DNA of 64,000 nucleotides from Heterotrichella gracilis (taxonomy: Eukaryota > Sar > Xanthophyceae > Tribonematales > Xanthonemataceae). Shown piece by piece: positions 1,061 to 63,254 of this stretch. The position numbers and the translations under genes are program-made. The notes under the pieces were generated by a model. The model saw only the letters and a list, made by a program, of their open reading frames with translations, was not told the origin of the DNA and made no database searches. Location of the stretch: assembly GCA_032358255.1 (NCBI GenBank), contig JAULBX010015422.1, positions 1 through 64,000 on the forward strand. The letters are read 5' to 3'. The stretch's first letter is position 1, and each line of letters begins with the position of its first letter.

Positions 1061-4000
1061 GGCAGGGGGGGTATGCTCACAGTCCCTTGGTTGCAGCTAT
1101 ATGAAACCTCCCCTTCCTCCCCAATTTCGTTGCTCACGCTATCCCCCAGGTAGAACGTCAGAAACATGCGGGGAGTGCCGGTATTGTTGAACCCCACCCC
1201 AATGGCCATGGAGTCATAGGTGCAGCCCTGTGCGCAAAAAGAGGGTGGCGTGACATTGGCGGGGAGCTTCTGTTTAGGGTTAGGGCTGAGGGTTTAGGTT
1301 TTGGATGTAGTAGTGCCGGTGTTGCTGAATCCCAGGCCAATGACCATAGAGTCGTAGGTACAGCCCTGTGCGCAGAAAGAGGGTGGCGTGACATTGGCGG
1401 GGCACCTTTGTTTAGGGTTAGGGCTTAGGGTGTAGAGTTGCTAGTGTTGTTAAACCCCGAGCCGATAGCCGGAGAATCAAAGCTGGAGCAATAAGTATAG
1501 AGTGGTGCACCTGGTATATGATGTCCAGATATATGATGTTCATACTTTACGGGTCAGGCTGAGGGTTACGGTTCAGGGTTTAAATTAATGCGAGGGAATA
1601 TTAGTGCATGTGGGGGGCTGTACTCTTGGACCCCTACAAATACCCGTGGGAGGTACTTCTGTTGTTAAATTCTAGACCAAATGGCTATGGAATAGAAGGC
1701 GCAGTCGTTCGCAGCACGCATGGTTTGGGGCCTAGGGCTGAGGCCACAAATTCTCAGAAACCCTAGTCCCTGCTTGCCTGCTTGCTGAGGGTTTTAGGGT
1801 TTAGGGTTTAGGTTTCAGAAGCATTCCAGTGATGTGCCCATGTAGACAAGGCAATTGCCATGTTCGCCAACTGAATGCGCCTTCCTCCCCCATATAAAAT
1901 ACAGGGTTAAAGCAGGAGGACTTTAATATATAACGTCAATTCGTAATATATTAAGGTCCTCCTGGTTAAAGGGAGAGAGGGTTTTGGAAAAATCTGGTTC
2001 CTGTGCACCCAAAGGTTGCACCCCTTCAGGGATGTAGCGTGCAGCTTGTTGGGATTAAGGGTTTGGGTTCAGCAAACAGTGCACTAAGGGTGGCCTTTCC
2101 CCATGTACCATGTAGGGTCTAGGGTTTAGGGCACGGAGGATGACCCTCTCACCACTTACCATGTATTCACGTTGGATGTCCTCGCTTGCCGGATTGCCAG
2201 TGCTGCACAGGTGTCAGAGGATGGATGTTAGCAAAGCAAATAAACAAGCAACTTTACCCCCCTTTCTTCAATAAAAGAAGGTCCCATTGGACGGCAAAAC
2301 AATACTGGTTATTACAATGTATTGCCTAAAGCCCTACTATCCAGGCCTACACTCTAACAAGTACACACTAGGCACCAAGCTAGCATCACTCACTATGCGC
2401 AAACCCACAACAAACTCTGAACCTTAAACCAACAACCTCTGAACCCTAAACCAACAAACTCTGAACCCTAAACCATATGTTGGGTGGCAACCCACAGAAA
2501 ACGCAGCACGTGGCCGTCTCTTTGCCTCGGAAGTAATACTACAATTTACAACTATAATGCAGTGTGTGTTGCGCCCTAGCACAACTACAGCTTTCCAGCC
2601 ACAGACTACAGAGAAGTAACTTAATTTGTTGGATTATTTTGATTCCTTAAATCAGTATTTTAGATGTCTTCCCCCCCCTCCTCCTTTTTGTTTTCGCACC
2701 ACACGAACTCCCGCAGTATATCCCTGACGCTATTGACCGCTGGATCTGTGCGCCCAATTTGTATGTCGGCATAGAACATGGGACCAACGTAGCCTGCAGG
2801 ATGAAGGGGTTGGGGATCAGGTTTAGGGCTTAGCCATAAATCGGCTGTATGTAGGCATGGCATGGCATGGCCGCCGGCGGTACCGCTCAAAAATACGGCA
2901 CAGGTAACTCACTGGTATCGTCCAGAGCCGCAGCCATGTCCATGACCGAGCTGGAGTGTTATAGTGCTTCTTCTCTTGGTTTCACATTATATCTCACACT
3001 CCCCCAACCCCCACCCCCCCATAAATGATCACGTGAGGTGGGCGGGGGACCCCAAAACGAGCCATAAATGGCTGTTAATAGCCATGGTTGATAACATTCA
3101 AGGTACCACAGACCACTCACCTGTGTCATCCAGCGCCGCAGCCATGTCAATGACCTGAGTGGGGCTAGAGGCCGCCCCATTGGCTGCCCACGCCTTGGCA
3201 ACTCTGTCAGCCGCACTGCAGTGGATAAGATGAAAATTAAATTTCATGTCATAGGTTAAAATAAATATGCAACAATCATGACCCAAATGGATGTAGGGTT
3301 TGGAGATGTAGGGTTTTGGTTTTGGCGACATAGGTCTACAGCTCCAGTCTGTATTTCCCCCGCGGTCCGTTGGATCCCTGCCCTGATGTGCTGCTGCTGG
3401 GTTACTGCGACTGCCTGGTACTCAGAATTTTAACATGTAGGCTGCATACGCCAACAGATCTGCTCCAGTGTGGTGTTCCGGGGATCCAATAGCTGTTTAG
3501 GGTTTTAAGTTGTAGGGTTTAATGTAAGGAGGGTTTTGGTAGCCTACCTTTCCATGTACTGCTGCTCTGTTGTGCCCCTGGGGTGCAATGCCTGTGCAGG
3601 GTTTGGATATGCAGGGTGTGGGCTTGTAGGTTTTGGACATGTAGGGTGGTGGCAGCGTACGTCCACAGCTCCCGCGTCGTGTCCACGGGATCCAATAATC
3701 TATTAGAGTTTGGGATTTTGGGTTTGGTGATGTAGGGTTTTGGCAGCGTACGTCCACAGCTCCCGCGTCGTGTCCCCGGGGTCGGTTGCATCCCCAGTGG
3801 CCATCTTGAGCGCCTGCCTGGCAGGGTCCAGCACAGCTGTGCGGTAGGGGTAGACTGTGCAGGGGAGGTAGCAGTAGAATGAATCTGGGGAGGTTCGGAA
3901 GGTATTGAAGCAGGTGGTCAGCTGCGGGCAGGGAAACGGGGTTTGGGTTTAGGGTTTAGGGTTTAGGGTTTAGGAAACAGGGGATCAGTGGGTTGGGGTA

Positions 4001-10679: not shown

Positions 10680-13600
10680 ATGGAGGGGACAGCCCAACAG
10701 CAAAACCAGCCGGCACCGATCCGGAGGTTAGAGGAGAGTGTGGTGAATAGGATCGCAGCGGGTGAGGTGATTCAGCAACCCTCAAACGCGCTGAAGGAGA
10801 TGTTGGAAAACAGCATCGACGCAGGTGGGCAGCTAGCGACTAGTACGGGACATTTGAGTACCGTCGTGAAATGAGAGCGCTTTCCCCTTGGTGTAGACGT
10901 TGCAATATACCTGCATTTCCCTTCCTATGGTTTGGTACAATGCATGCATATGTTTCATGCATTGCTTGCCCTGTTCTGCAATCCACCCCTTGATTTTCAA
11001 CCCTTTTCACCCTCCATACGCCACCCACCCTTTGGCCTTCAGGAGCCACCCAGATATCAGTCACAGCCAAGGATGGTGGCATCAAGTTGCTCCAGATCCA
11101 GGACAATGGCCATGGCGTCCGGGTATGTTTCAAGATGCGGGACCAACCGTTCAACTGTCCGGCCACCCCACCACTACGCCACAGCACGTCTATGCACCAC
11201 TGCCCCCAACACTGTCCACACAGCCACCCCAACAATTTTATTCTGCACCATTTGGTAGTCATTGGCATAAACCCTGCGCCGATGGCATGGAGTGCATCGT
11301 GCATCCCTGAGTAGGTTAAAGTTTCAAAAAAGGGTACCACCTTTGCAAAGCAACCCCGCATCAATAATGTCCCTTGCAGGAGACGGACCTCCCCATCCTA
11401 CGCAAGCTATACGGGTACTCCAGGCGCACAGTATGTTAATCTATTTTAATTTTACACTTATTCATCACCCTTCCCATTCTATAGGAGGAGGACCTCCCCA
11501 TCCTGTGCGAGCGCCACACCACCAGCAAGCTGCGCGAGTACGAGGACCTGCAGCACATCAGCACCCTAGGGTTTCGCGGGGAGGCGCTGGCCAGCATCAG
11601 CTACGTGGCGCACATGACAGTCATCACGATGACGCACGGCGCCACCTATGGGTTCAAGGTTGGGTACCGAGACGGTGCGTGTAAGATAAATCAAAGGCTT
11701 GAATTTGACAGAGCCATGGCAAAGACAATTCTGCCTTTCATGAAGGACACTTCTCCTCACTGAACCATCATCCAGCAGGCGCAAAGCAGCGCTATCAATG
11801 CACCGTATACACCACCTATTGAGATATTGCATGAACTAATGCCCAACACGGACTCCCTTGTGTGCAGGCAAGATGCTGGGCACTCCTGAGAAGATTGCTG
11901 CCCGCCCCGGCACCAGCATCACTGTGGAAGACCTGTACTATAATGTGCCTAGCAGGAGGGCAGTGGTGTGTGTGTGGGGTGTGGGGGTTGGTGGATGGCT
12001 TGGGGTGTTTTGTGTGAGGGGTGTACTTCCTCCTGGTAGGATTTAATAGATGTATTTATGTATTTATTGTATTAGCTTGTATTTCTTAATTATTGGTGAT
12101 TAATTAATGTGCGCATTCCAAGTATCCATCATCCCCCTTTGCAGACCCAGGACCACTCGGCAGAGTACAAGCGTATTATGGATGTAGTTGCACAGTACGC
12201 GGTGTTTAAACCCTCCGTGGCCTTCTCATGCAAGAAGCTCACAGGGGCGGGCCTGGGGAAACCCCAGATTGGGGTTTCCACCCGATCGGGGGCGTCTAGG
12301 AGGGACAACATTCGGGAGGTGTATGGGGGGGACATCGCCAAGGCGCTGGTGGAGGTTTCGCTGCACAGGGGGGAGAAAGGGGGGCGGGAGAAAGGCGGGG
12401 AGGGCACCGAGGATGAGGGCCTGGTGTGTGATGTGGAGGTATGTGGTGGTGGGGGGCGGGGGGAGGAGGGGTGGGGGGGTGGTAGTGGTGTTCTGTCTGG
12501 GTGGCAGGCCTTTGGTGGCACCCCATGTCCTGTTGTAGCACCATGCGTACTACACTGACCTTCAATATTGTACCCACCCAATTGAGTTCTTCCTATTATC
12601 AAAGGATCCTCACAATTAAATTCAGAACCCAGGGTGCCATGCTTGCCCTCCCACCTCCCCACCCGCTGCAGGGCTACATCACCAATGGCGACTACACGGG
12701 CAGGGCCCGCACCCACATGGTCCTGTTCATTAATGGACGACAAGTGGAGTGTCGTCCCATGCGAGCAGCCATTGAGGCAACCTACGCCACAGTGCTGCCA
12801 AAGGACTCAAAGCCATTCATATTCCTGGTGAGAGTGAACATTACCTGTAACGCCCACAATACCATGATGTTGCTACCGTTGCAATGAACGGTACATCCAT
12901 GATGGGTGGTAGAGCGCACTATGTTGTCTGACTGGAGCATCTAGGGAAACGGTCGATACACAAACATTCCAATGGCCACCCTTGCTCCATTCCTTTCCTG
13001 CACTCCCCTCTGTCCATGGAATAGGCACCCTACGCTGTCCTCAACCCCCTCCCCTCCTACCAGGATGTGAAGCTCCCCCCCTGGCACGTGGATGTGAACA
13101 TGCACCCTACCAAAAGCGAGGTGGGATTCCTGCACCAGGAGGAGCTGATAGAGGGGCTGTGTGAGGCGGTGAGGGGGGCGCTGCTGGCCACAAACAACAC
13201 GCGCACATTCACACAGGTGGGTGGTGGGGTTTTGTTGGTGTTGTGGAGGTGGGCGGCGGTGGTGGTGGTGGTGGTGGTGGTGGTGGTGGTGGTGGTGGTG
13301 GTGGTGGTGGTGGTGGTGGTGAGGGTGAGGGTTGATGGTGGTGGTTGTCATCCTGCACAGGAGGATCTGGTGGAGGGGCTGCGTGAGGCGGTGAAGGGGG
13401 CGCTGCTGGCCACAAACAACACGCGAACCTTCACACAGGTGGGGTGGTGGGAGTGTTGATGATGTTGTAGAGGTGGTTATTGTTGTGGTGAGGGTTAGGG
13501 TTGATGGTGGTTGTGGGCTTCCTGCACCAGGAGGAGCTGGTGGAGGGGAGGTGTGAGGCGGTGAGGGGGACACTGCTGGCAGGCTCATAAGCGTGCCGTG

Positions 13601-16600
13601 CATGGTAGAAACGCATGCGCAAACCCCTTACCCCGTCTTGCTGGTTGAAGCACCTCCCATGTGTCAGTACCTGTGTAAGACAAAGTAGAACATTATTTCT
13701 ATTTCTCTTTTATTTCATTATTTCCCTCATTATTTATAACGCGTACGCACAACCACGTTATGCGCGCAGACGATGCTCCCGGGCGCCCCAGAACCCTTGA
13801 CCAGGGTTCCCGACCAGGCCACCCAGGGCAGGCAGGTGGCTGAGAACAAGATGGTGCGCACCGACGCGCGCGCGCAAACCCTACACACCTTCCTAAACCC
13901 TAGCCAGGGGGGCACGCAGGCTCTACCCAATTTTCCAAATCCCAGCCAGTCGGGGCAGCAATCCCAGGGCCTGGATGGGGCTGGTGGTGGGGATGCAATG
14001 GCGGGCGTGCGGGCGGCTGCGGTTGCTGGAGCCATTGGACGCAAGCGCGGGGCGGCCGATCGGGCGTCTGTGGCTGTGGATCTGACTGACATGGCGCGAG
14101 GGGCGGACGGGCCACCTGGTAGGGTTTCCGTGTCCCGAAAACCCTAAATATGGTACACTGTGAATTATCTTCTGGTGGGATAGGCTGTAGGTGTGACCAG
14201 AGTGGCGCAAGGGCGGGATAGCGCAAATATCCCTTGAACCTTAGAAGCGAAATGGCATGTCTGTTTGTATTCTCCCACTGTCCTCTCCCCACTCACAGGC
14301 CCTCATCCCCCCCCTCTAGAGGACATTGACGCCGTGCGGCGGGCGGTGCGGCAGCGCAGGGGGCCCCACCCCTCCGCCCCCACCCCCAGTGCCCCACAGA
14401 GCGCTGCAGTGCGATCGCTGCTGGATGAGGTGGAGCAGGAGGTGCACACAGGTAAGAAGACCCTAGACCCTAAACCCTTAAATCCCTAGAATTCAACCCT
14501 TGACAGGTAACCCTATTGCTGCTGGATGAGGTGGAGCAGGAGGTGCACACAGTTGGGAAGACCCTAGACCCTAAACCCTCAAAACCCTAGAATCCAACCC
14601 TTGACAGGTAACCGTATTGCTGCTGGATGAGGTGGAGCAGGAGGTGCACACAGGTGTGAAGACCCTTAATTATAAACCCTTAATCCCTTGAGCTAACCCT
14701 TGATAGAACCCTATCACCGCTGGATGAGGTGGGGCAGGAGGCGCACATAGGTGCGAAAACCCGAGACTCTAAACCCTAAGCTCAACCCTTGACAGAAAAC
14801 CCTATTGCTGCTGGATGAGGTGGAGCAGGCGGTGCACACAGATAGGAAATCCCTGCCCCATTGCGTTCATGAAACCCCCACCAAAACCCCACAGTGTCCT
14901 CGTGATCCTAATAACTCCCTGCCACAACCCCCCCCCCCTGTAGACCTGCGCGACCTGCTCCGCCAGCACAGCTACGTGGGCCTGGCCACCCCCCAGCTTG
15001 CGCTGCTGCAGTACGGCACGCGCCTGGTGGCTGCGCAGGTGGGGGAGCTCACAAGGGAGATGGTGTACCAACAGGTGAGAGGGGAGAGAAAGCCCTGAAT
15101 TTTACTCTGAAAACCCTATGAGCCCTTGGGGGGGATGCAGTGGGCTTTCCGTCGCTATTCTGGTATCCCTATGAGCCCTTGAACATCCTTGGTGGAAAAA
15201 TGCATGTGATGTTTTGGAGACACGCATACATCTCTTGGAGGCCTTGGCTTTTCTCGTCATGATGTAAACCCTACCCATGCATTTAACAAACTCTTCGCCA
15301 ACTTCCTGATTACCCTACGTGGGTTTCTGTCGCTACCACCGGCTACCACACATCCGCCTGAATACCTCTATGCTACAAACCCTACATCAACCCCCTAAAT
15401 GTCTTGATAACCATTTGTCCCCAGGTGCTGCGGCGGTACCACCGGCTGCCGCGCATCCGCCTGCACCAGCCCATCCCTGTGCGCCAGGTGGCACTCATGG
15501 CGCTAGACATGGAGGAGGAAAGGGGGGAGCTGCAGGTGGGGGAGTGGGGGGTGTTGTGGGTGTGTGGGGGTATGACGGGGTTCCTATGGTGCCGGACATG
15601 GAGGAATAAGGGGGGAGTTGCAGATGGGGGGATTGGAGAGGGCAAATGTGCACTTATTGTTTTAAGCATTTGAATTATTTTTACAGTATGAACAAAGAGA
15701 CGACCTGGGTTTCAATTGATAACAACAGTAGATGTTCGAAAGAACACAGAATTGGGGAAGAATGAAGACATTTCAACTCAATTACATGGCTGCACAATTG
15801 TGACCCGTCTCCCAGCCCTTATCCCCTGCCCCGACTTCCCCTTTATTCCACTCCCTACACCCTAGGTCGACCACGATGTGAGCAAGGGTGATGTGGCAGA
15901 CATGGTGGTGCGCCTGCTGAGGGAGCGCGCGGGCATGCTGGGGGAGTGCTTCAGCATTGACATAAACGGGGAGGGGGAGCTCACAGCCATACCGCAGGTG
16001 GGGACAGGCAGTACAAGAAGATGTGTTGTATTGGATGATGCTGTCGTTCTCCTAAATTGGTTAAATCTTCCACATGATGCATTTCACTTACCATACCACA
16101 GGTGGAACAGGAAAGACGAGACGCATGTTATCAGATGACATTGCCATGTGCTTAGGTTGATTAAAACTACCACATTTACGTGTTTGATGTGTTACATTTT
16201 GGAATGAGCATGTCGCCATCATTCATTGGTTTGTCTTGCAGGTGGTTGACCAGTAGCCTGCCAAAAGGTCAAAACCCTGAAGCAGGGTTTGCTCCCCATG
16301 AAACCCTAACTTAGGGTCTGGCCTCCCCCGCAGGTGATCGACCAGTACGTGCCTGACCTCGACCGCCTGCCGGGTCTGGTGCTGCGGCTGAGCAGGGATG
16401 TGGAGTGGGGGGATGCGAAAGAGTGCATACGCGGCATTGCACAGGTAGGCGTGGGTGGGTGGGTATATCACAGGTGGGGGCAGTGATGGTGGGCAGGTGG
16501 GGGCTGGGTGGGTGGGTGGGTACTGCATAGGGCGGGAGTGGGGGGTAGGGCTGAGCCTGACCTCGACTGCCTGCCGGGTCTGGTGCTGCGGCTGAGCAGG

Positions 16601-17435
16601 AAATTGGAGTGGAGGGATGCACGAGGGTGCATACTCGGTTTTGCACAGATGGGGTGAGAGGGGATAGGAGGGGCACTGCAAATTGGGCAGGTTAATGGGT
16701 GCTGTGATTAACCCGCCATGCAGTTGAGGATGTGGTTGGCGTGGGTGTTGACCCTCTTGTTGTGATTCACCTGATTCTTTCCCTTTGCAATCTGGCAGGT
16801 GCTGGCGGAGTTCTACCAAATACAGCCGTGGTTTTTGCCGGAGGAGGATCCCCAATCGCAGAATCCCCAGCAGGCAGGGACCAGCGGGGAGGCACACACT
16901 GGAAATGGAGAAACGGCAGGCACAGCGATTGACCGTGCAGATTGCGCCGCCGCAGCTATTGAAGGAGGCAGTGTGGAATTGCCACCTGTCACTGCAGCAG
17001 CGCCTGTGGATAGTGGTGGGGGACCCCTGCCAGGTTGTGGCACAGGGCTTGCGGATGGCAACGTGGAACAACAGCCAGGTGGTGCCGGAGCGGCGCCAGG
17101 TGGCGCTCCTCCAGACCCCTCTGAGCGGGAGCGGGCACGGGAGTGGATGGTGCAACATGTGGGTTACTCTCCTCCCCCACTCGTCCCCTGTGTGCATGTC
17201 CACACCCCACCCAGCCGCCTACCCTGCCGCATGAGTACACCCAGCATTCCACCCCCTTTGTCACCCGTGGAAGTGTCTCACCCTCCTGACTTTTGCCCTC
17301 CCCCTTTCTCTCCCGCAGGTTCTCTTCCCCGCCATGCGCACGCAGCTACTGCCCAGCCGAACGCGCGCCACAGACGGCACCTTTGTGACCCTCACCACCC
17401 TGGAGAACCTGTACAGGGTGTTTGAGAGGTGCTGA
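10680..17435 (+). CDS. MLH1: DNA mismatch repair protein MLH1
   Basis: MutL-family ATPase that pairs with PMS1/MLH3-type partners and acts in the nucleus after MutS homologs bind a mismatch. The start is ATG at 10680. Exons are 10680-10824, 11043-11122, 11485-11674, 11868-11962, 12145-12438, 12672-12827, 13064-13216, 13770-14118, 14320-14451, 14944-15074, 15425-15535, 15866-15997, 16334-16444, 16799-17158 and 17319-17435 (851 aa, somewhat longer than the usual 740-770). GHKL motifs are visible: [37 protein letters not shown] and [12 protein letters not shown]. The transducer domain has [12 protein letters not shown]. The linker has [17 protein letters not shown]. The C-terminal dimerisation domain ends in the MLH1-specific FERC. 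Extra length lies in a charged insert around exon 5 and a long linker in exon 14. Introns are crowded with exon-derived repeats. Identity is certain; a few exon edges could shift by one codon. Confidence 0.95.
11380..11440 (+). repeat. Relic copy of MLH1 exon 3 start
   Basis: An acceptor (CCTTGCAG) and the first codons of exon 3 (ETDLPIL against real EEDLPIL) recur about 105 bp before the real acceptor, then diverge. Confidence 0.75.
13247..13321 (+). repeat. (GGT)n microsatellite in MLH1 intron 7
   Basis: About 24 GGT units lie between exon 7 and its first downstream copy. Poly-valine and poly-histidine readings here are artefacts. Confidence 0.9.
13359..13444 (+). repeat. In-frame copy of the MLH1 exon 7 tail (possible cassette exon)
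   Basis: Bases 13361-13438 repeat the last 26 codons of exon 7 with an acceptor (CCTGCACAG) and a donor (GTGGGG), open and phase 0 at both ends. It would add [13 protein letters not shown]... ending TRTFTQ. Seven bases differ from the exon, four codons change, mostly conservatively. Confidence 0.7.
13524..13585 (+). repeat. Second, shorter copy of the MLH1 exon 7 tail
   Basis: It matches [11 protein letters not shown] onward, then decays after CTGCTGGC. The donor is lost. Confidence 0.7.
14514..14845 (+). repeat. Four extra tandem copies of the MLH1 exon 9 end
   Basis: The last 12 or so codons of exon 9 ([11 protein letters not shown], real copy 14418-14451) recur near 14514, 14618, 14713 and 14806 with a period of about 100 bp. 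Each is followed by a CCCTAAA-rich spacer. Two copies keep a GT donor (GTGTGA near 14655 and GTGCGA near 14752), while the first and last have lost it. Confidence 0.9.
15317..15365 (+). repeat. Relic copy of MLH1 exon 11 start
   Basis: A decayed match to the [11 protein letters not shown] coding part of exon 11 lies about 110 bp upstream of it. The acceptor is lost. Confidence 0.7.
15581..15635 (+). repeat. Relic copy of MLH1 exon 11 end
   Basis: It matches the [10 protein letters not shown] coding end. The copy holds a stop and its donor is changed to CAGATGG. Confidence 0.7.
16231..16290 (+). repeat. Relic copy of MLH1 exon 13 start
   Basis: An acceptor TTGCAG and GTGGTTGACCAGTA resemble the real exon start about 95 bp downstream. 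There is an in-frame stop. Confidence 0.65.
16554..16655 (+). repeat. Relic copy of most of MLH1 exon 13
   Basis: Roughly 90 bases match exon 13 ([10 protein letters not shown] coding part) at about 85%. The donor GT is changed to AT, so splicing at that site is unlikely. Confidence 0.8.
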
Positions 17436-39400: not shown

Positions 39401-39787
39401 GCAGCGTGAATGTGCCTCGCCGTTTAGTTGGTGTGGGTTGGGAGTGCATGGGTGTGTAGTCAGTGTGTATCATCCACCTGTATGACACAGACCCCACGGG
39501 GATTGCCTTTGATCAGTGTGCAAGGCAGGCAACCCTTTCCGCCCACATTAGGGCCTCTGCATTATATTGGCCACACACCCCTAGGCACTCGCCAGACGCC
39601 CCATGTGCCCACCTTAACCCCCTCCTTAACTCCCTTACCCCCCAACCCGCAGATGCAGCAGTGTGGCCAGCCTCCCCCAGAGATTGTGAGCGAGCTTGCG
39701 CCAGGCATGGAGTTTGGTGCAGACGGCATCCCACGCATGGGGCCAGAGGCGGGCGGGGGAGCGGCGCCAGACTGCGCCATGCAATGA
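36473..39787 (+). CDS. PEX19: Peroxin PEX19, peroxisomal membrane protein chaperone/receptor
   Basis: Binds newly made peroxisomal membrane proteins in the cytosol and delivers them to PEX3. Exons are 36473-36512, 36818-36899, 37179-37510, 37879-38141, 38989-39153 and 39653-39787 (338 aa), phases exact. The N-terminus ADDLDQLLDEALDGF is the PEX3-binding helix. A lysine- and proline-rich insert follows (exon 3). The cargo-binding C-terminal domain has MQQLLSKDVLYQPMK, KYPEWLARNQ and CGQPPPEIV. The protein ends CAMQ, a good CaaX farnesylation box as in other PEX19 proteins. Intron 4 is unusual because it carries inverted copies of the exon 4 end. Confidence 0.95.
37645..37800 (+). repeat. Relic copies of PEX19 exon 4 parts in intron 3
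   Basis: Segment 37658-37695 matches the exon part coding SSTLRKLA. Segment 37770-37793 matches its start (CACCGACGGTGCCATCCC). Both are decayed, with their order reversed relative to the exon. Confidence 0.6.
38107..38534. repeat. Inverted repeat covering the PEX19 exon 4 donor
   Basis: Bases 38493-38534 are the reverse complement of 38107-38148 with two mismatches in 42. They span the last 35 bases of exon 4 and its GT donor, and the loop is about 345 nt. A weaker inverted copy lies at 38411-38441. Confidence 0.85.
38541..38746. repeat. Two tandem units of about 95 bp ending in another inverted exon copy
   Basis: The motif GCCGTCAACCTGCCGGCAAG starts both units, followed by GATTAGGGTTTG-rich sequence and a GTGGGCGGC block. 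Near 38709-38746 the unit matches the reverse complement of exon 4 around MQQLLSKD. Confidence 0.75.
39288..39490 (+). repeat. Copies of PEX19 exon 5 end
   Basis: Bases 39288-39352 repeat the exon 5 end (LYDTDPT.FQELITQLQQ) with donor CAGGTGGGG. Only two exon bases differ over most of the length. A third fragment lies at 39466-39490. Confidence 0.85.
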
Positions 39788-39825
39788 AGAAACCCTAGAG
39801 GGTTTTGGGGTACCCTCTGGGAGTT

Positions 39826-39899
39826 GGGGGTGGATGGCATCCCGCGCATCGGGTCAGAAGGGGGCGGTAGAGTGGCGCCGGGCTGCGCCATGCATTGAA
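39826..39899 (+). repeat. Downstream copy of the PEX19 last exon end
   Basis: It lies after the stop codon and reads DGIPRIGSEGGG and ends GCAMH plus stop, against DGIPRMGPEAGG and DCAMQ in the gene. No good acceptor precedes it. Confidence 0.75.
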
Positions 39900-39988
39900 G
39901 GGATCTGAATCTCTTGGACCCTTGACTTTTAGGGTTTCTAGGGGTTTACCTACATGTTTTCAAATTTTAATTACCTCGGGAATTTGGA

Positions 39989-50012: not shown

Positions 50013-53000
50013 TCACGCCAGTGCGTCCCCCACCGCTGCAAATACCAGCGGCGCCAGGTCCGGCCTGTCGCCCTTGTAGAAGCAGTTGATCCCCTGCACA
50101 CCCGAGTAGCGCAGCTCCATGAGCAGCTGGGTGGGGGCAGGGGGGGTGGCTGCGCGCGCCGTCACGTACAGGACCTGCTCGCCAGTGGGGGCCTGCGGGA
50201 TGGGAGGGAGGGAGCGTGGTGAGGGTGGAGAATAGGGTTTAGGGTTCAAGGTGGCCGCGCACGCTGTCACACGCAGGAACCTACTTGCCTGGGTCATGGT
50301 GGCAATGGGGAGCCGCATGACATGCTTAGGGTTACGGGGAGCAGAGTGGCCATATCCTAACTACCACATCGCCATAAACCCTAAGTGTCCTGTCCGTCAT
50401 GACCAGGGCGTTCCTTGCCAACAGCTTAGCCTTGCTCGCATCCAACTGGCAAACACTAGCCATTCGACTTCCAGAAATCAATTACTTCCCCAGTCACCAC
50501 ATGTGGCAAATGCAACCTGGCCCCCGCCACACCCGTACCGTCTTGTGCGCCATGACAAAGATGTTTTTTGCCGCCAGTTTGGCCTTGGTTGCCTCCACGT
50601 CGGTCACCGACACCGCCAGCTGGCTGCTGACCTCGTTGCTGTCAGGCAGTGCCTTCCAGGACTGCACAAACTGCGCCGCCTCGATCTTGCCGTCCTCCGT
50701 GAGCAGGCCCAGCAGGCTGATCTGGTCGTTGAAGTACAGCACGCCCTGCTGGTTGTTCTTCACGGCAACCTGCACAGGCGGGTGTAAAGTGTGTGTAAAA
50801 AACAAGAATATGTTTGTTTCCCAGCGAAGATTGTTTCATCGGCAGACAGAGGAAAAGTGTTAAGCTACGGTGTCAATGAAAAGCAAAGGATAAAAAGGGT
50901 AAAACACATAGTAAACAGTAAGGGTTGGGTGGCGGGAAGAGTCCATGACCCTAAACCCTAAACAGTCTTAAAGGAGATTTGCCATCCTGAAAAAAGGCTT
51001 GCACTGTCATGAAAGGAGGATTTGCTACCATGCATAACAGAGATATACACCCAGAGCCATACACCGGGCACCTGCGAGCCCCAAGCCCTGCATCTACACC
51101 CTACCTGCAGGAGTCCGTTGGCTGCGCCCGGTGACACCATCCCTGGGTTGACGGTAAGCGCCACACTGGCCTTGGAGGTGGCGCCGGGGGCAATGGAGCC
51201 CACCGGTACCGCTGGGTTGGCTGGCTGCAGCCCAAAGCTGTTCTTGTTGAACTGGATCATCACGCCGTCAACCACGCCACCGGTGCTGTTGGTGAAGGAC
51301 ATCTGAAGGGCACAATACACATGTGATATGTAAGGGTTTGTTTAGGGTTTTGGGGGTTGTGAGACTCGTGACGTGCAGTGAGTTTGCAGTGGATACATCC
51401 ACAGCTAGCTCACATCTGGCAAAACAACTGAATATTGTGTATGACCTTGCATTAGTTAGTTAGTTACATGCATTGCAGCAATGCAGCCAGATTAGCAGTC
51501 AGTCTTGCATATGCGGCGCCACGCTGCTTTCTCCTGGCACTGTTTGAACCACTTTTTTATCCAACGCGACTTGAGGTCCTGCTGGAGTAGCTGACCTTGC
51601 ATGCCTTCTTCTTAATTAACCTTGCTTAATTACTGCACCCAAATAGGTATTGTGCACCCACCTGGTACACGATTTGTCCGTTGCTCCGCTGCACCTGGGC
51701 GCTGATGGCCAGGCCCTTGCCCTTGTCGCCAGGCAGCACCACGGGGAGCACAGGCTCGGCCAACGCAGGTGGAGGCGAGGGTTCGCCAAATGAGGCAAAG
51801 CCGAATGGATCGGCCGCCGCCGCCATTGCGGGTGCCGCCGCCGCTGGTGCAGGGGCTGTGCTGGGGGGGCCTAGGTCAAAGTCCCCTGCACACACATGAT
51901 TGATCTAAGGGCCAGGCCAAACCGTGCCATGTCGAATAGCATAAGTGACGCATGCTCAAGGCCAGGCAAACATGTGTCATTGGTTGTTTCCCAGGGTGAA
52001 TGGATGCAGCGCCCTCTTGTCCCCCAACCACCGTGTGGCGCCAATCAACATAATCAGTTCTCGCTCAGTGCTGAGGAATGCCCGCCACTTCCACAAGGCA
52101 CGCGCCTGTTGAAGAACAGGCAGCAGGCATTCTATTCCATCCCATTCCCTTCATTTACTTTACCACCCCCAAACCGCACGCACCTAGCAGGTCCAGTATG
52201 TTGCCGTTCGCCCCGCCCGAATGCGCCGGCGCGGCCGCCATGGGCGCCGGCGACCCCATGTCCATCAGATCCCCCAGCAGGTCCATCTGGGGCGCGGGTG
52301 CGGCGGGTGCGCGCGGCGCCGCTGCGTCTCCTCCTGCGGTTGAGGTTGTCTCCTCTTCCTCAAAGGTGGGCTTGTCCAGCTCCTCCGCCCGCTGCACCGC
52401 CATGCGCTGGCGGCTCACAAAGCCCTGCGGGAGGGCCACAAGTGGTCAAAAGGGGTGATTCACACCTTGTATATGCTGATGAAAGGATACTGAATTAAGG
52501 CGCCTCCTCCATGTCGGAGGTTGATTTGTGCAGCTCCTCCACCCGCTGCAAGGCCATGCCCTAGCGACTTACAAAGCCATGCGGAGGGGAGGGCTGCTGC
52601 CGTTCAAAAAACGCTTCCTTCCCCAGGGTTTCCCTCTTGAGGGTCACAAAACTTCAGCCAGGGAACCCCCGCAAGACCATTTGATGGAAGGTATCCACAT
52701 CTGTTTGCTTGTGACTTCTGTCAAGATGACAAAGGCGCCCACCCCACCACACCCCACCACCACCACCACACACACCCCGCACCTCTGGGCGCTTGTGGTA
52801 CACAGACGACAGGTTGCCAATGTTCCTCAGCAGCTCCTGCAGCAGCGCCGGCTCAATGGCGTCAGAGGTGTCGCTGATGACGGGCTTCTCAGCAAGCACC
52901 ACGTCCTTGGCAACCTGAGAACACAACAGGAGACAGATGATTAGTGGGGTTTTGATGCGAGACACAGCCTTGGCTCTTGGACTAGGATGATCCATACCCA

Positions 53001-56000
53001 GGCTAATCTGAGTTCAAGCTGGAATCACATACTTACTCACGGAGTATTTAGTAATACTTACAACACAGCAGTGATATTTTCCTTTCTTTCATCAATGTGC
53101 TACCAACAACCCCACCCTTGTTTCAAGAGCCCACCCTTATTTTAGATGCTACTTTTATTTATCCCACCTCTGGGTCTGTGGACAGCAGCCTCCAGTAGAT
53201 GTATGCCCTGTCACGCAGGTCAGGGTTATCTGTCTCCTGCGTGGCGTATGTGAGCACCAGCTGGATCATCTGCTGGGGCCGCTCGGTGGGCTTCTTCAGG
53301 AACAGCTTCACGGTGGCGGTCACAAGCTGCAGCTGGACCTGCACACCAAGGGATGAACAACTCAATAAGCTGAATGAATGAGTACAGGGAGAAACCAGCA
53401 CCATGCGAGTTCCACAACACACAAAATGAAATGACTTGGTAAGGTACGGTCCCATTGCTTTAAAGAGTTTCCAACCATTTTCCAACCCCAGTGTCTAATC
53501 TGTAGGTAAATGCCTTCAATTTATTGTTAATCCCCAGTGTGTTCAACATTGCTCTCCAAGTACCCCCACCCCCGTATACCATGGATGCTGCATTGCAGTC
53601 CTTTATAATATAAATAATAAAAACAAAACTGATATCTGCATGTGGGCCCACATACCACGCTTGGCTCCTCCGGGAATGTCTCCAGGAACTGCTCCAGCAG
53701 CTCGTCCGCATTGTCAATGCGCTCCGCATACTCGCCAATGATCCAGATCATGGACGCCTTGGCCTCGGGCTCATCCAGCGACTCTAGGTTCTCGCACAGT
53801 GTGGAGATGATGGACTCGTAGCGGTTGGGGTAGCGCCGGAAAATGTCCTGCGGGGGAGGGTTAGGGGTTAGGGTTTGGGGTTGATCATGGATGCGTAGCG
53901 CTGGCGCTACACCAACAGCTAGGCGTCCATCATTCCCATGCTGTGCAGGCTCCATGACACGTGCCCGGCCTCGCAGGGCATCTTGCGCTACACATGCCCT
54001 GGTGGTCCTTGCAATCAAACCCATGCATTGCCACCACCCTTCTCTTTTCTAACTCCTCTTCCTGCGCCTGTTGAGACAAAGGTTGTGTATTTCATTCAAG
54101 CCCTAGTCGTACCTTGATCACGATGATGGCCTCCTGCACCACGTAGTTGACCTTGGTCTGGATGAGCTCCAGCAGCACGTTGATGCAGCGCTCTGCCGCG
54201 ATGCTCAGGCTGACCGCGCAGCGCCCGATGGCCCGCACCGACTTGCGCACGAAGTCCACGTCCACCTCGGTGGCGTACTCCTTGAACTCCAGCAGGATCT
54301 GGTCGATGTTGCGGTCGTTCGCCAGCTTCACCATGATCTCAAGCTTCTCCATCTTCACGTAGATGGGGTCGTTGTACTTGCAGAAGAAAACCTGGGAAAA
54401 GTAGAGGAGTTGCTTGATTACACTGATGCGAAATCAAGCCTGGCGCCCACATCCTGTATCCTATCTAAATGCTGCATCTTCATGCCACAGGACCTTGAGC
54501 AGCATCTGGACCACCACGTGAACGCGCCTGTTTAGGGTTTTGATGTGTAATGGTTCAGGGTTACCTTGACTTCGTGCGACAGGATTTGCGGCAGCTTCTG
54601 TACCACCAGGTGGATGTTCCTCAGCGCCACGTACTGGATCTCGGGCTCGGCGCTGAGCAGGGTGACCAGTGGGGGCGCCATCTTTTTGCACAGCTGCTTG
54701 TTCAGGGCCTCGTCGGTGATCGCGTCCAAGCAGTTCAGAAGCACCTGCAGCGGTCCGCATTTGTTTAGATTCAGTAACATTGTGCGGTGGTCCACACAAA
54801 TTGGGTGCCACCAAACCTCTCATACTAAACCCTGAACATCACAACCAGGGTAAAACTGCTTGGCGCCGCCAGTGCAAAATTGACAGCTGTGGTGCAGATG
54901 TGTGTGTACCTAATTAACCCAACAACAGGCGGCACCCTAAAGGAGATAGGCCTGGAGGTGCGAGTGCACCCTCCAGCTGATACCCTACCTTGACGGCTGA
55001 CAGCACCACTGCGCAGTTGGCGTGCTGCAGGCGGGGAGTCACGCGCTCAGCGATGCTCTCGGCGTCCTTTGCGTCCCGGGGTGTGTAGGTAGCAAGGGAG
55101 TCCAAGATGAAGACCTGCAGGGGAGGTGGGCCAGGGGGGTTGTCCTGAGAGATGGGTGCATGGGGCTGGCTGCTGGCAGCAGCATGTGAGGACAGCAGGG
55201 CATGGCGTATTACCACCACCACCCTAACTGGATCGTGTCTGGTACTGTAACTGCGGCAACGGTGAGTGCCAGTCACTGGCCCCAGCACCTGCTGTTGCGC
55301 AAGGCTCATGGGTGAAACAGTAAAAAGAATTCATCACATTGTTAATGCAGCGCCTGCGTTGTACCTAGCCCCCACTCGCTACGAAGTAAGAATATCCAGC
55401 GTGGCCCCACAAACAACGCACCTGGCCCCACTCAGTGCATTCGTTCAGCGCGCGCAGCAGCTTGAACAGGGACTGCGAGTTGATTTGGAACACCGGCTTG
55501 CCGCTCACATCCTGGATCTCTTGCAGCGCTGCCACAGCATTGGCAACCACCATGGGGTTGGCATCCGACAGCATGTCCTGCAGAGCGCAGCTGGCAGCGT
55601 CAGCATCATACCAAGTGACAGTTGTCCTTGCATCCCTTTTGTGCTGCTCTGGTTGCTGACCAGGGCCCCGCATTGGCTGGCTGTGCGTCAGCAACATACA
55701 GTACAGCATGCAAAAAACTCCAAGGCCTTGGGAGCCCAACTCAGGTGCAAATACTGGCCACGTAGGCTGACCTGACAGCGCGACACCTCAATGCAGGCAG
55801 CACTGGGAATGGATTAAGCACTGCCAAGACAGGGTTGCGTAGCGCAAAGCTGGTGCAAGGCTGTCTGCGAACCTCGCTGTGCTGCCGTAGCGAGTAGCTG
55901 AGTGTGATGCTCACCTTCAAGGCATCCAAGAAGCCGCGGTCCTCCACCAGCTCCGGGTTGATGTCATACAGCTTTGAGACACACACTGCTGCAGTCTTGC

Positions 56001-57396: not shown

Positions 57397-60300
57397 ATGC
57401 TGCACCCACGCCCGATGGGTTCAGCCTCTGCCTGCTGCAGTTCTTCAACCTCTGCCAGGCTGAACGTAACTGAAACTTCCCGACGTCCTCTCTCCGCAAG
57501 GCGGTCTCAATTCCCACATGTGGTCAGGCCTGTCCCGTTCCGGGGCCCCACCCCTTTCTCAGCCTTCCCAGTCCAGCACGCACCCAGCCAGCGATGCAGG
57601 CTTCGACAGCGAAACAAGAGGCAAACCTGCAGTGCATCTGCAGCCAGCACCGCTGCATCACCACCGCAACCCCGAGAAAGCTGGCGCCAAAAGTGGGACA
57701 ACTGGTGGAGCCTGGGTCAAGAGAACCAGCTGCAGAAGCCTGCGCTGGACCAGCTGGGACACTTCAGCAGCAAGATGTGGACTTTCCTAAGGATAGACAA
57801 ACTCTTGCTGATCATCTCCAGCTTCTTCATGGTGCGAACCCACCTCAAACGTATCTGCACCACATGCCAATCATGCCCAACTGTACCCGTGCACCTCCTA
57901 CACCCACTGACTCAAGCAGCGCATATGGGATGAGTGGGATCTGAGCCGGGTATCTGCGTGGGTACCGCAGGTCTGCTCTGCACTCTCGGAGCTTGGCATC
58001 CCGCACTTCATCTCTGCTTCGGTGTTCTCAGTAGCAGCGGGCGACACAGCGCTGTTCAAACACAACCTGATGATGCTGGTGGTGAGTACCTGACGTCTAT
58101 ATCGGCATGAAGCATGTAACCGTCTGGCAACACTTGCAGTGCCTTTGTCTGCACCACACCCCTGCTGCCTTTCGTTGGTGCTGACCCTCTTGCATTCCCT
58201 CACCGCCATGCAACCAAGCACCCGCACACAGTTGCTCTCAGTGCACAGTCAGTTGCTCGCACTCCCCACTTTCCACCTGAGTGCAGCATGGTAGGCACAT
58301 GCTGGCGTGCCACGGCTAGTGCACAGGATACTGGCGTCTCACACTTATACCGCACCGCCTCTCATGCGTCCCTGCCTCACATCGCATGCACACCTATGGC
58401 TGAGCCACATCCCCGCTGCCATACCCTGTCCACATATCTGACACTCCCCTCGCACCTCCGGAATACCATCACACCTGCCAACACCCGCGCACGATATCAT
58501 GAACATCTGTCCGCGCTCTGATTGCCCGCCATTTCACGCCCATGCAGTCGATGTCTGGAGCTTTCGCCGTGTTCACTGGCATCAGGGGGTGCTGCTTCAG
58601 CCTGGTCAATACCAACCTGCTCCAGCGGCTCAGGTAGGGTTCAGCTCTAAACCCTTAACCTAGCCTAAACCCTTTAGGGTATGGAATGTGCACTGCCTGC
58701 TCAGCAGCTCATGTAGGAGGGAGCATTTGAAGTTTATTGGCCATGCGTCCTGTGGACGTTGTTTTATGCACACCTTCAAGCTTGAAGAAAAGCCAGTAGC
58801 AGCAAACGACACACGCACGAGTGGCAGGTGACCTCCCCGCACGCAGCTTCCTGTTCACCCTCCTGCTCAAGGGTGAGATGACCACCCACTTTTAAAGGGG
58901 AGGTACACTTAGGTGGCGCTGGACCCCGCCTGGCACAGCTTGCTGTATTGACGGCAAGATTGGAAAGCTTTAATTCTATACATGCTCGTCCCCTTCTCCG
59001 CCCAACCCCACCTATCACCCACCGCAGGCAGTCCCTGTTCACCCGCCTGCTCAAGCGTGAGATTGCCACCTTTGACCTGGAGGAGGTGGGGGCGCTGACC
59101 TCGCGCCTGGGGTCCGACTGCCACGTCATCGCCAAGCTGTTTGCCACCAACATCAACGTGGCGCTGCGCAACCTGCTGCAGACGATAGGTGCGCGGTGTG
59201 GGGGTGATTGGGCAGGGTTGGGTGGTGGGGGGGGTTGGCAGGTTTGCGGGTGGTGTGGTGCATGGGTCGTACCGCGTCACAAAGCATGCCTGCCCTGTCC
59301 AGACCTACATTTCCCTATCCGAACCCTACTGTGAATTGGATTTGGTGCGGCCTACCTGTGGTACCTCTCCCCTGCGCTAGCAATTACCCCTCTCCATACA
59401 ATTAATGGCCCCAACTCAAACTGGTTAGGGTTAAGGGTTGTATCCTGTTAAAACTTGTAGGGTTCAGCGTTTATCGTTTTATCCTGTTGGTTTGATGATT
59501 CTGTCCAAAACCCCAATTTGCGGTTTGCAGGCGGAGCGATCTACCTGTGGTACCTGTCCCCTGCGCTGGCGGGCGCCTGCGGTGCCTCCATGCTGGTGTA
59601 CCTGGCAATAGCGGTCACGTACGGCAACTTCACACGCAGAGCGCAGCACACATACCAGGACACACTGGCAGACACAAACCAGGTGGGGCAAAATGCAAAA
59701 CTCTGAACCCAAAGCCTAGCCCTAACAGGACACGGGTACCCTGGCCATAGCGGTCACACATGGCAATTCTGCATACGCGCGCAGCACACAGCCTCACCCC
59801 GCCCTCCACGTGCAGCACACCCCCACACACACCCACACATGTGACCTCCCCACTCCATCCACATGGATTACCAACCTTCTGGCGCAAGCCACATGCCACG
59901 CCAGCCTTGCCTCAGCCCACCCTTCGCATGCACCACCTGCCCACCCAGCCTCTCCCCAACCTCCACATGCATCACCAACTCACCCCCCATCCCCCCCAGG
60001 TGGCCGAGGAGGTGTTTTGGCAGGTGCGCGTGGTGCGCGCCTTTGGCACCGAGGCGCGTGAGATCAAGCGCTACAGCCGCTGCCTGGCCCGCCTGCGCTC
60101 CATCAGCGTGCGCCAGGCGGCAGCCTACCTCATGTACCTGGTCAACGTGTGCTTCCTGTACAACTTCACAAAGGTGCGTGGGGGCTGGGCTGGTGGGGGG
60201 TAGTCCTGGTGATGGTGCGGTAGGGGGGCGGTGGTGGTGGTGGTGGTGGTGAGATCAGCCACTGCTTGTCACGGCAGGTAGGTGGGGGTGGGGGTACCTC

Positions 60301-63254
60301 ATGTACATGGTCAACGTGTGCTTCCTGTATAACTTCACAAAGGTGCGGGGTGGGGTGGTGGGATGGGAGGATGGGGAGGGTACATCACATACTGGGTTAA
60401 TGTGTGAAAAAAGTACATGTGTGAGCATGTGTGGTGGTGGTGGGGGTTGGCATGGGCGAGGGATGTGCAGTTTGGGACCACACGCTCACCACCCCACCCC
60501 CCTCAGCTCATAATCTTCTCTTTCCAGAAAAGAGTAATGTACTATCTTTAAATCTCATTTGCAATGATTTTCTTATCATTTACGAAGACATTTTCCAATC
60601 CCCGCAGGCCCTTGCCCTCATCCTGGGCGGCACCATGGCCCTCCAGGGCCAGATCAGCGCGCAGCAGCTCACCACATTCCTGCTGTACACCGGCTTCGTG
60701 ATGGACGCAGCAATGAGCGTGTGCGACCAGTGGGGGAACATCATGGAGGCGGTGGGGGCCAGCGAGAGGGTGGTGGGGTTCCTGGATTCCGAGGAGGCGC
60801 CCCAGATTGCGCCTGGCAGGCAGCTGGAGGAGTTTACTGGCAAGGTGAGGGGTGGGGTGGGTGGTTTTCCTAATTTGTGAGTGCAGAGGAAAGGAGCGAC
60901 AGTGGAAAGGAGTGGTTTATTGCAGCGGGGAGGGGATGCTGGTGGTTGTATTGCTGGTGGTGGAGCAACAGTCAGGGTTTTTGTGGTAAGTAAGTGGGTG
61001 TTGGATTGAGCTGTGCAATTTGGGTTGCACCCACCACCCATCACCCACCACCACTCCACTCTTGCAGGTCGAGCTGCGGGACGTGGGCTTCACCTACCGC
61101 TCGCGCCCCGACTCCCCCGCCCTCACCACCGTCAACCTCACCCTGCAGCCAGGCAAGCTGGTGGCCCTGGTGGGGCTGAGTGGCAGCGGGAAATCCACCC
61201 TGGTGGCGCTGCTGCAGAGGCTGTACGACCCAACGCATGGCCAGGTGGGTGGGGGATTTGGGGATACAACCCAGCGCATTGCTAGATGATTTTATGCCCG
61301 AACCAACCACTTCGTAGCAGCAGGCTAAAAGCATTTGCCCTGCCACCCACCACCACCGCCATCACCTCGTGCCATTGGGTTGGTTCACAGTTTCCACTCC
61401 CATCCCCGCCACCAGCACCTCTTTCAAGTAGGTACCAATAACCTCCTCCTCCCTCCCAGGTCCTGGTTGATGGTGTTGATTTGCGGGATCTGGACGCCGC
61501 ATGGTACCGGCGCCACATAGGCGTGGTCAGCCAGGAGCCGCGCCTGTTCTCCATGGACCTGTCAGCAAACATCCGCTACGGGTGCGATGGGGTGTCACAG
61601 GAAGAGGTGGAGGAGGCGGCGCGCCTGGCCAACGCGCATGAGTTCATACTGGAGCTGCCGCAGGTGGGTGGCTGTGGTGGTGTGGGGGGTTGGAAGGCGG
61701 GTTGTGGGGGGGGGCATGGCGTCATGCCGGGCTTTTAAGGGTTAGGGGTTGGACCTGGAAATCCGCTGCGGTGTGCTGTGGGTTGCGACGGGCAGTGGAT
61801 TGGCTGGGGCTACAGCATGAGGATGGGAGGGTCTACATGCACGTAATCATTGGCAGACCTTTCTCGCCCACAGCACCAATAAACCGCTTCCAACCGCACC
61901 CAACTCCGGCCCCCAAAACTCCACACACGGCCGCGCACCCCCCCTCAACCCGCCCATCTGCAGCCTCCCCTGCACACACCCTCACACTTCCCATTTGCCG
62001 GCCGCAGGGCTACCAAACGCACGTCACCGACAAGCTCCTGTCGGGGGGCCAGCGGCAGCGCATCGCCCTGGCCCGGGCGCTGGTGCGCCAGCCCAAGCTG
62101 CTCATCCTGGACGAGGCAACCAGCGCGCTGGATGCGGAGAGCGAGGCGGCGGTGCAGGCGGCCCTTGACAGGGCCATGCGCACCAGCAGCAGGGCGGTGC
62201 TGGTCATTGCGCACAGGTGGGGCGTGGGGTGGTGGGTGGTGGTGGTGGTGGTCAAGGCTGGTGGTAATTGCAGGCTGCGCTTGGCTATGCCGTGTGGACC
62301 AGCCCTAGGGCAGTGGGGGTGAGTGCGCACAGGTAGTTGGTGCTGGTTGGCGGTGGTGGAGGTGGAGATGGGGGTGGTAGTGGTGCTGGCCTTCTCGGCA
62401 TGCAGCGGAGGGCCCCACAGCTCATGGCGGCACCCTTAACCCTACCCCTATACCAGCGCCACCACCTGTCGTCTGCACTGTATGATTACATGGTACCCCC
62501 CCAACCTCCCATCTCACCCACTTCCGCAGGCTGTCCACTGTGCGCACCGCGGACCACATCATCGTCATGCAGCGGGGCCAGGTGCAGGAGGAGGGCTCCC
62601 ACCCGCAGCTCATGGCTGCGCAGGGCCTGTACGCTAGCCTGGTGCGGCGCCAGGGCCTGGGCGTGAGCAGGCAGGATGAGAACCTGTCGAGGGACGAGGA
62701 GCAGGTGGGTGGGGTGGTGGTGGTTGGGGGGATGGCGGGGCCTCTGTGGTGTGCATTGGCAATGTCACACATTGGCAAGTAGTGACAGGCTGTATACGTG
62801 GTCATGGCCCTGTGACGCTACCGGTCGAACGCTGGACTGATTGGTTTACAGTTGTAAAATACAAGTAAAATATTGAAGTAAACGAGGCATTCACTGATGC
62901 TGCTATAACATTTCTTGGGATATCAGACACTCTCCCCAATGCCACCCTGCTCCCACATACGCAAACCACCCACAAACTCCTCAACTCACCCCCCAAATCC
63001 CCACCCTGCAGGCGCCGTCCCCCCCACCCACCTCCGTCACCTCCACCTCTGGAGACGAGCTGTTGGACGAGCTGGCGGCGGATCGCCAGGGAAAGTTTTC
63101 TTCAGATTTGGAGCCACCCCCCACGCCAGGGGCCAGCTTCGATGGCGGTGAGAGGGGGGGCAGCCCCCTGCCAGGGGGGGAATCCTCGGAGGACGAGGAG
63201 GAGGTGGTGGGGGCGGGGGAGGTGGCTGAGGCTGTGTCTGAGCAGGTCACGTGA
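57397..63254 (+). CDS. Half-size ABC transporter, ABCB/TAP-like, probably organellar
   Basis: ATP-driven exporter half with one membrane domain and one nucleotide-binding domain, expected to dimerise. Exons are 57397-57831, 57971-58081, 58548-58633, 59028-59188, 59531-59682, 60000-60173, 60608-60844, 61068-61244, 61460-61663, 62008-62216, 62530-62704 and 63012-63254 (787 aa), all phases exact. Residues 1-75 are Ser/Arg-rich and acid-poor, like a plastid transit peptide. The membrane domain has [16 protein letters not shown] and [11 protein letters not shown]. The nucleotide-binding domain has Walker [11 protein letters not shown]-loop VVSQEPRLF, signature [15 protein letters not shown], Walker [13 protein letters not shown] and the H-loop IAHR. 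The C-terminal tail is acidic and proline-rich. The nearest relatives I can name are plant plastid TAP-type ABCB proteins. The substrate is unknown. Confidence 0.92.
58838..58885 (+). repeat. Relic copy of ABCB exon 4 start
   Basis: It matches the acceptor and [11 protein letters not shown] coding start about 190 bp upstream of the real exon. Confidence 0.75.
59343..59385 (+). repeat. Relic copy of ABCB exon 5 start
   Basis: It matches the [10 protein letters not shown] coding start. Three of the differences in that block are silent. The acceptor is lost. Confidence 0.75.
59727..59795 (+). repeat. Relic copy of ABCB exon 5 interior
   Basis: It matches the [17 protein letters not shown] coding part, downstream of exon 5. 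Confidence 0.7.
60294..60345 (+). repeat. Copy of ABCB exon 6 end with donor
   Basis: It reads [16 protein letters not shown] plus donor GTGCGG. Two bases differ from the exon, one silent and one Leu to Met. Confidence 0.85.
62281..62340 (+). repeat. Relic copy of ABCB exon 10 end
   Basis: It resembles the end of exon 10 including GCGCACAGGT, decayed. Confidence 0.65.
62399..62436 (+). repeat. Relic of ABCB exon 11 interior
   Basis: It resembles the MQRGQ and HPQLMAA coding parts of exon 11 with the middle missing, about 130 bp upstream. Confidence 0.6.

Follow-up and report, generated by a model that had tools for sequence, protein, structure and literature searches.

The window and its genes

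The window analyzed here, meaning the whole 64-kb stretch of DNA, is eukaryotic nuclear sequence with a G+C content of 54%. Its gene content, a proline-rich secreted protein, and TTTAGGG-type motifs suggest a green alga. The exons of seven genes were read and then curated by checking splicing and frame, which gave a final set of 63 exons and 56 introns. These genes are MLH1, a lipase-like gene, NnrU, PEX19, a short gene at 40988, an ABC transporter and, on the minus strand, an AP beta-adaptin. All 56 introns are GT-AG, and the 63 exons join into CDSs that keep their frame and have a single stop each, at the end. Pfam backs five of the seven (MLH1, NnrU, Pex19, ABC transporter, and adaptin) and gave no match for the remaining two, the lipase-like and the short gene. 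We take the NnrU gene to be Z-ISO-like and the ABC transporter to be ABCB-like; the name lipase-like is an assumption of the same kind. Three further genes with approximate exon bounds, a MYND gene and two paralogues at 44-49 kb, contribute 19 introns; the MYND exon chain as written did not hold frame, and its exons are approximate. The two paralogues (44000-48900, minus strand) are diverged and have one intron each as read, without exon copies. Pfam returned for them just a sub-threshold DUF7730 match, in one of the two, and by eye we presume them to be LRR-like.

Outside these genes, long G-rich repeats lie at 1-1050 and 6984-8288. On the minus strand, the second encodes what reads as a proline-rich protein, and a weak CAP-domain match, under the Pfam cut-off, lies near it. 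An uncurated, secreted-protein-like region at 1-10 kb holds six local direct-repeat pairs in a BLAST self-comparison. Related contigs were sought in viral and genome contig collections with the first 603 residues of beta-adaptin, and none was found in either. An alpha-tubulin query found no match in the viral collection and three loci in the genome collection, two assigned to a Verrucomicrobiaceae MAG and one to a Xanthomonadaceae MAG. All three were rejected as relatives: telomere-like 6-mers occur there at just 0.25-0.39 per kb, and the ORFs of one Verrucomicrobiaceae MAG contig (L001) are by eye unlike those of this alga. On L001 and L002, the tubulin gene is 92-93% identical to the green-algal query used, and these two contigs, placed in a Verrucomicrobiaceae MAG of a bacterial genome collection, are probably eukaryotic contamination.

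Copies of exon edges in introns

When each exon was aligned to its own introns, 31 copies of adjacent exons were found at a score of at least 30, in 22 of the 56 curated introns (22/75 with the approximate models added), in agreement with an earlier note on this DNA that had counted about 30 (Table 1). The number of copy-bearing introns differs with gap costs and masking: 17/56 at a score of at least 34 with low-complexity masking, 21/56 at the same cut, and 22/56 at a cut of at least 30. In the masked scan, other-gene pairs reached the cut of 34 in 0.04% of cases and shuffled introns in 0/560. Exon-edge copies in these introns are real and far above chance.

Table 1. Genes, exon copies, and local repeats located in the window
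Feature	Position	Strand	Basis
138-bp tandem pair, secreted-protein-like region	1174..1435	.	88% TRF, 87% BLAST
MLH1 gene, 15 exons; 10 exon copies in introns 2, 7, 9, 10, 11, 13	10680..17435	+	gene model, Pfam, exon-intron alignment
MLH1 intron 2: short exon 3 start copy, 87%	11385..11407	+	exon-intron alignment
MLH1 intron 7: exon 7 last 89 bp and donor site, 91%	13351..13438	+	exon-intron alignment
MLH1 intron 7: second exon 7 copy, truncated, 90%	13513..13580	+	exon-intron alignment
MLH1 exon 9 end and intron 9: tandem array, ~101-bp units	14417..14848	+	TRF, BLAST, alignment
MLH1 intron 10: short exon 11 start copy, 87%	15331..15360	+	exon-intron alignment
MLH1 intron 11: exon 11 end copy, 82%	15586..15623	+	exon-intron alignment
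MLH1 intron 13: exon 13 last 94 bp, 87%	16555..16648	+	exon-intron alignment
NnrU intron 2: part of exon 3, 26 bp inside junction, 75%	33819..33859	+	exon-intron alignment
NnrU intron 3: exon 4 first 128 bp and acceptor, 91%	34619..34747	+	alignment, codon comparison
PEX19 intron 2: exon 3 start copy, 79%	37089..37140	+	exon-intron alignment
PEX19 intron 3: exon 4 start copy, 79%	37616..37689	+	exon-intron alignment
PEX19 intron 4: inverted exon 4 end and 6 bp intron, 95% BLAST	38493..38534	-	BLAST, alignment
PEX19 intron 4: intron-only tandem pair, 90%, TTAGGGTTT-like motifs inside	38540..38721	.	TRF, BLAST
PEX19 intron 4: second inverted partial exon 4 copy, 89%	38709..38745	-	BLAST, alignment
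PEX19 intron 5: exon 5 end copy, 94%, spacer also duplicated	39280..39346	+	TRF, BLAST, alignment
PEX19 intron 5: second exon 5 copy, short, 86%	39469..39497	+	exon-intron alignment
PEX19 3' flank: CDS end and stop codon copied, 80%, without splice site	39820..39900	+	BLAST, flank scan
Beta-adaptin intron 15: weak exon 15 end copy, 72%	50387..50444	-	exon-intron alignment
Beta-adaptin intron 11: exon 12 start copy, 82%	52518..52578	-	exon-intron alignment
Beta-adaptin intron 8: inverted partial exon 9 copy, 82%	53903..53946	+	BLAST, alignment
Beta-adaptin intron 7: exon 7 end copy, 80%	54478..54520	-	exon-intron alignment
ABC transporter intron 3: exon 4 start copy, 74%	58843..58933	+	exon-intron alignment
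ABC transporter intron 4: exon 5 start copy, 87%	59344..59381	+	exon-intron alignment
ABC transporter intron 5: exon 5 interior copy, stops 30 bp short of junction, 79%	59736..59790	+	exon-intron alignment
ABC transporter intron 6: exon 6 end and donor, 96%	60295..60342	+	exon-intron alignment
ABC transporter intron 10: exon 10 end and donor, 73%	62269..62332	+	exon-intron alignment

The copying is strictly local. Adjacent exon-intron pairs reached a score of 34 in 20/112 cases, compared with 0/552 for non-adjacent pairs of the same gene (0/98, 0/84, 0/70, and 0/300 at a distance of one, two, three, and more introns). Introners were rejected as an explanation on this ground and because matches between introns span only 19-44 bp at E<=0.01. 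Comparing the window with itself by BLAST gave 32 direct repeats, 28 of them no more than 800 bp apart. The distance from the source end to the copy is 44-352 bp, and less than 180 bp in 22 of the 27 direct copies (first estimate, 50-250 bp); the duplication offsets are about 90-400 bp (89-392 bp). Identity between copy and source is graded from 72 to 97%, matching the earlier description of copies that range from near-identical to barely visible. Besides the 27 direct copies, 16 from the upstream and 11 from the downstream exon, four are inverted: PEX19 intron 4 has three of these, including a weak one, and adaptin intron 8 has the fourth.

The earlier note had described copies that nearly always take the start or end of the adjacent exon together with its splice site. 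Of the direct copies, 21/27 reach to 10 bp or less from the junction, whereas random placement in the same exon gave a mean of 3.1 and a maximum of 9 such copies over 2000 trials. Two clear contiguous tandem arrays of exon end, junction, and spacer are present. In MLH1 intron 9 the unit joins the exon 9 end, the junction, and a CCCTAAA-like spacer, and is repeated 4.4 times with four copies inside the intron; in PEX19 intron 5 a 185-bp unit is repeated 2.1 times. A compound rearrangement is seen in PEX19 intron 4 (38461-38780), where a TTAGGGTTT-rich tandem pair is flanked by two pieces of exon 4, both clearly copied in inverted orientation.

Copies also occur where there is no splice site. 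At a cut of at least 34, CDS-end copies were found in the 3' flanks of 2/8 genes: in PEX19, the CDS end with its stop codon repeats 111 bp downstream, and the MYND gene scored 44. The ABC transporter, at 33, falls barely under the cut, and the same scan found copies in the 5' flanks of 0/8 genes. The duplication rate at the edge between CDS and 3' flank is thus comparable with that of exon-intron pairs (2/8 and 20/112).

The genes are unevenly affected. Copies number 10 in MLH1, 3 in NnrU, 7 in PEX19, 6 in the ABC transporter, and 5 in adaptin, with none in the lipase-like gene or the short gene. Counted by intron, 22/49 in these five genes bear copies, compared with 0/26 in the lipase-like gene, the short gene, the MYND gene, and the two paralogues at 44-49 kb (p=1e-5); among curated genes alone, the copy-free set is 0/7 introns (p=0.035). 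Third-position G+C is 0.73-0.83 in the copy-bearing genes versus 0.58 and 0.68 on the copy-free side, and telomere-like bases per kb of intron are mostly higher (20-74 versus 5 and 25). Six genes had originally been credited with copies; five hold in the curated set, and a sixth is plausible given the six repeat pairs of the uncurated 1-10 kb region. The four inverted copies (one weak), the CDS-end copies in 3' flanks, and the 26 copy-free introns are additions to the earlier account.

An assembly or haplotype artefact is scarcely credible as the source of the copies. All of the data do come from a single record, but the copies are 3-28% diverged from their sources, some with indels, and the pattern is repeated in five curated genes with intact reading frames.

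Fate of the copies and intron length

Between copy and source, 10.8% of first, 10.3% of second, and 16.8% of third codon positions are mismatched, and the copies overall give pN 0.110, pS 0.202, and pN/pS 0.55. Such values fit a neutral copy compared with a silently drifting exon, from which we infer that most copies are debris. Ten of the 31 copies carry a net frameshift and seven an in-frame stop, and coding constraint is not seen in the copies overall. The 129-bp copy in NnrU intron 3 stands apart, as an outlier whose differences from exon 4 are almost all synonymous (9 synonymous and 2 nonsynonymous over 123 codon sites) and whose acceptor is intact. Judged from its sequence, this copy looks protein-constrained and may be a candidate alternative exon or a formerly used one. 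It is the one point in favor of reading the copies as alternative or mutually exclusive exons under selection, which we consider very improbable in view of the frameshifts, the stops, the pN/pS ratio, and the fact that the copies are truncated pieces of exons. The earlier suggestion of alternative exons thus fails in general, although the NnrU intron 3 copy could be one.

Within the five genes, copy-bearing introns have a median length of 352 bp, compared with 244 bp for the others (p=0.0002). With the largest offset subtracted, the median of the copy-bearing introns falls to 181 bp (20 introns). Since introns with copies are longer by a median of about 100 bp, duplication contributes to intron length here, and the expectation of longer introns was borne out. 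The companion proposal, that the process is a source of new introns, was not. A signature of intron creation was sought under the AGGT model, i.e., an intron start resembling the downstream exon start or an intron end resembling the upstream exon end, and it exceeded the control maximum in just 1/56 introns. That case, NnrU intron 2 (score 35, control maximum 26), is weak, and apart from it intron creation was rejected.

Telomere-like motifs

The window is rich in telomere-like heptamers: AGGGTTT occurs 45 times versus 4.3 expected, and AAACCCT 39 times versus 3.5. The share of bases covered by telomere-like 7-mers is 3.5% in introns, 0.28% in exons, and 1.4% elsewhere, consistent with the CCCTAAA/TTTAGGG-rich spacers noticed at first reading. 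Among 6-mers, AGGGTT (149) and GGGTTT (135) far exceed GTTTAG (47); the unit is therefore TAGGGTTT-like and not a random slice of a telomere array. We take this unit to resemble the plant telobox, AAACCCTA. Inverted AAACCCT/AGGGTTT pairs lie at 14120-14148, 16272-16317, 39790-39805, and 58635-58680, where small hairpins are conceivable.

In the five copy-bearing genes, mean telomere-like content is 6.2% in introns with copies and 2.3% in the others (p=0.0017; 21 and 27 introns, with copies removed from the length and MLH1 intron 9 excluded). With both edges of the copies pooled, telomere-like cores were found within 15 bp at 15/56 edges, with 15.6 expected (p=0.6). At the breakpoint edge only, similarity is raised, with p from 0.0002 to 0.054 across three controls and three window widths, and the telomere motif reaches z=3.3, compared with 0.95 at the splice-site edge. 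A motif-permutation control weakened this result: among 20 motifs of equal composition the telomere motif ranked first, but the runner-up had z=3.2. At most, these results hint at a link between telomere-like motifs and duplication breakpoints.

Tandem duplication and its rivals

The copies are probably what remains of DNA segments that were often duplicated over short distances, usually in direct and at times in inverted orientation; such duplication likely arises in break repair and is filtered by selection against damage to exons. This reading accords with matches to the adjacent exon only, graded divergence, mostly neutral-like decay, and copies at places without a splice site. Breaks or paired nicks would be repaired by fill-in synthesis and end joining, thereby duplicating the sequence around the break. 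Insertions into coding sequence would be lost to selection, with survivors in introns and 3' flanks, where copies are tolerated because of that location; copies stay recognizable because the source exon is itself preserved by selection. Any tandem unit that starts or stops in the exon and has its other end in the intron would necessarily include the exon edge and splice site, so that junction inclusion is a geometric consequence of units ending in an intron. Spacers would be erased by later deletions and sequence turnover, and the net outcome would be longer introns and, rarely, the chance of a spare exon.

This geometry bears on the proposal of the earlier note that a continuing process duplicates exon-intron junctions. 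Local duplication and graded divergence are supported; junction specificity is not, given the 3'-flank copies without splice sites in 2/8 genes. A process aimed specifically at junctions, linked to splice sites or RNA, could account for the excess of near-junction copies (21/27 versus 3.1 expected) and for the shortage of intron-only duplications reported below. Nevertheless, we regard it as improbable, because CDS ends are copied as well as exon-intron pairs, inverted copies exist, some copies are exon-interior (e.g., in ABC transporter intron 5), and tandem-unit geometry already yields junction inclusion.

Tandem duplication makes further predictions, and the window agrees with them unevenly. 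Short range is evident from the contrast between adjacent and non-adjacent pairs (20/112 versus 0/552). Same orientation holds for 27/31 copies and fails for the four inverted ones, which simple fill-in does not give. Recurrence of the spacer was assessed in 18 events, taking for each side of an intron the best direct copy that lay at most 12 bp from the junction and had 15 bp or more of sequence past it. It exceeded the 95% shuffle limit in 4/18 events (MLH1 introns 7 and 9; PEX19 introns 3 and 5), whereas simulation at three indel rates predicted 15.4, 12.9, or 9.4 of 18. The simulation used each copy's own divergence and assumed uniform substitution with short indels; for the copy in NnrU intron 3, divergence at codon positions 1 and 2 probably understates the age, making the expectation too high by as much as one event. 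An other-intron control gave three more spacer cases at p 0.005-0.011, of which one was already among the four, for a total of six; those added are NnrU intron 3 and ABC transporter intron 10.

Duplications confined to the intron are similarly scarce. At a score of at least 38, which 2/280 controls reached, just 1 of 15 cases is intron-only (PEX19 intron 4), as opposed to 14 introns with exon copies; here the repeats internal to MLH1 introns 7 and 9 and PEX19 intron 5 were treated as the spacers of units that also carry exon sequence. A uniform tandem simulation, again assuming uniform substitution and short indels, put the intron-only share at about 40-47% of detected events, making the observed deficit significant at p 0.001-0.005. 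Some preference for exon edges is thus conceivable. The spacer deficit and the intron-only deficit could both result if large deletions, to which spacers and intron-only pairs are exposed on either side, were common, but both are also expected from templated insertion or from exon-edge preference; therefore, these two are kept as rivals.

In templated insertion, repair of an intronic break would copy a short nearby stretch, the exon edge, non-contiguously and along with unrelated filler, in the manner of end joining by polymerase theta or with filler DNA in plants. The 14/18 events without detected spacer duplication, the copies that stand inverted in intron 4 of PEX19 and intron 8 of beta-adaptin, and the raised telomere-like sequence at the breakpoint edge all point toward it. 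At least two clean contiguous arrays argue in the other direction, and filler should have no preference for exon edges, yet 21/27 direct copies end near a junction; moreover, the lead of the telomere motif over others of the same composition is narrow. On balance, we consider templated insertion unlikely as the main source of the copies, and short-range duplication through break repair is the reading we carry forward.

A single repair intermediate might unite the motifs and the duplications. Telomerase would touch an intronic break with a 3' overhang, adding one or a few TTTAGGG units, and fill-in by CST-Pol alpha would duplicate the flank. The idea is speculative, and we hold it to be rather doubtful. 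If true, algal introns grow by a telomere-flavored repair pathway that records itself, with exon edges as readable tags.

Comparison with known systems

Intron lengthening and local duplication are usually inferred from rare events, whereas here conserved exon edges tag the copies, and one 64-kb window provides about 30 of graded divergence. The whole genome probably holds very many, enough for rates, unit lengths, orientation, and junction filler, and such a set could test whether telomere-like motifs and duplications have a common origin. Among the matches listed in our literature search (titles and abstract openings, with few subscription journals), there was no description of dense exon-edge copies in algal introns. 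Within that literature, the density of copies, in 22/56 curated introns or 22/75 with approximate models, in one window seems new.

Short local duplications have reportedly been studied in rice and Arabidopsis. At breaks, CST-Pol alpha fill-in with end joining is documented to produce small tandem duplications, and short local direct duplications are called common in plants and animals (PMC8355091; PMC5730883). Like break-repair tandem duplications, including those of patch-mediated repair in plants, the copies reported here are short, local, and direct. They differ in their longer offsets (89-392 bp), their position at exon edges, and the telomere-like motifs alongside; in addition, most spacers here are unmatched.

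Introners are presented as shaping introns primarily in fast-evolving lineages such as green algae (PMC9860276). As characterized there, they are alike across many introns, whereas each copy here matches its adjacent exon, and no other-gene pair reaches a score of 38. Interstitial telomere-like motifs within chromosomes have been proposed to result from telomerase in break repair (PMC2246262). The motifs in this window are likewise internal, but they are very short, degenerate units concentrated in introns, and a break origin for them is speculative.

Internal gene duplication, as Gao and Lynch are said to have described it in 2009, takes place inside genes and across exon and intron. The duplications reported here are also intragenic and involve both, but they are mostly truncated, decaying intronic pieces outside coding sequence. 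In the RdRp gene of potato, a duplication is described that spans an intron-exon boundary, so that part of a former exon is now intronic (PMC4974935). The potato duplication crosses a boundary as the copies in this window do, with the difference that here it is existing introns that grow.
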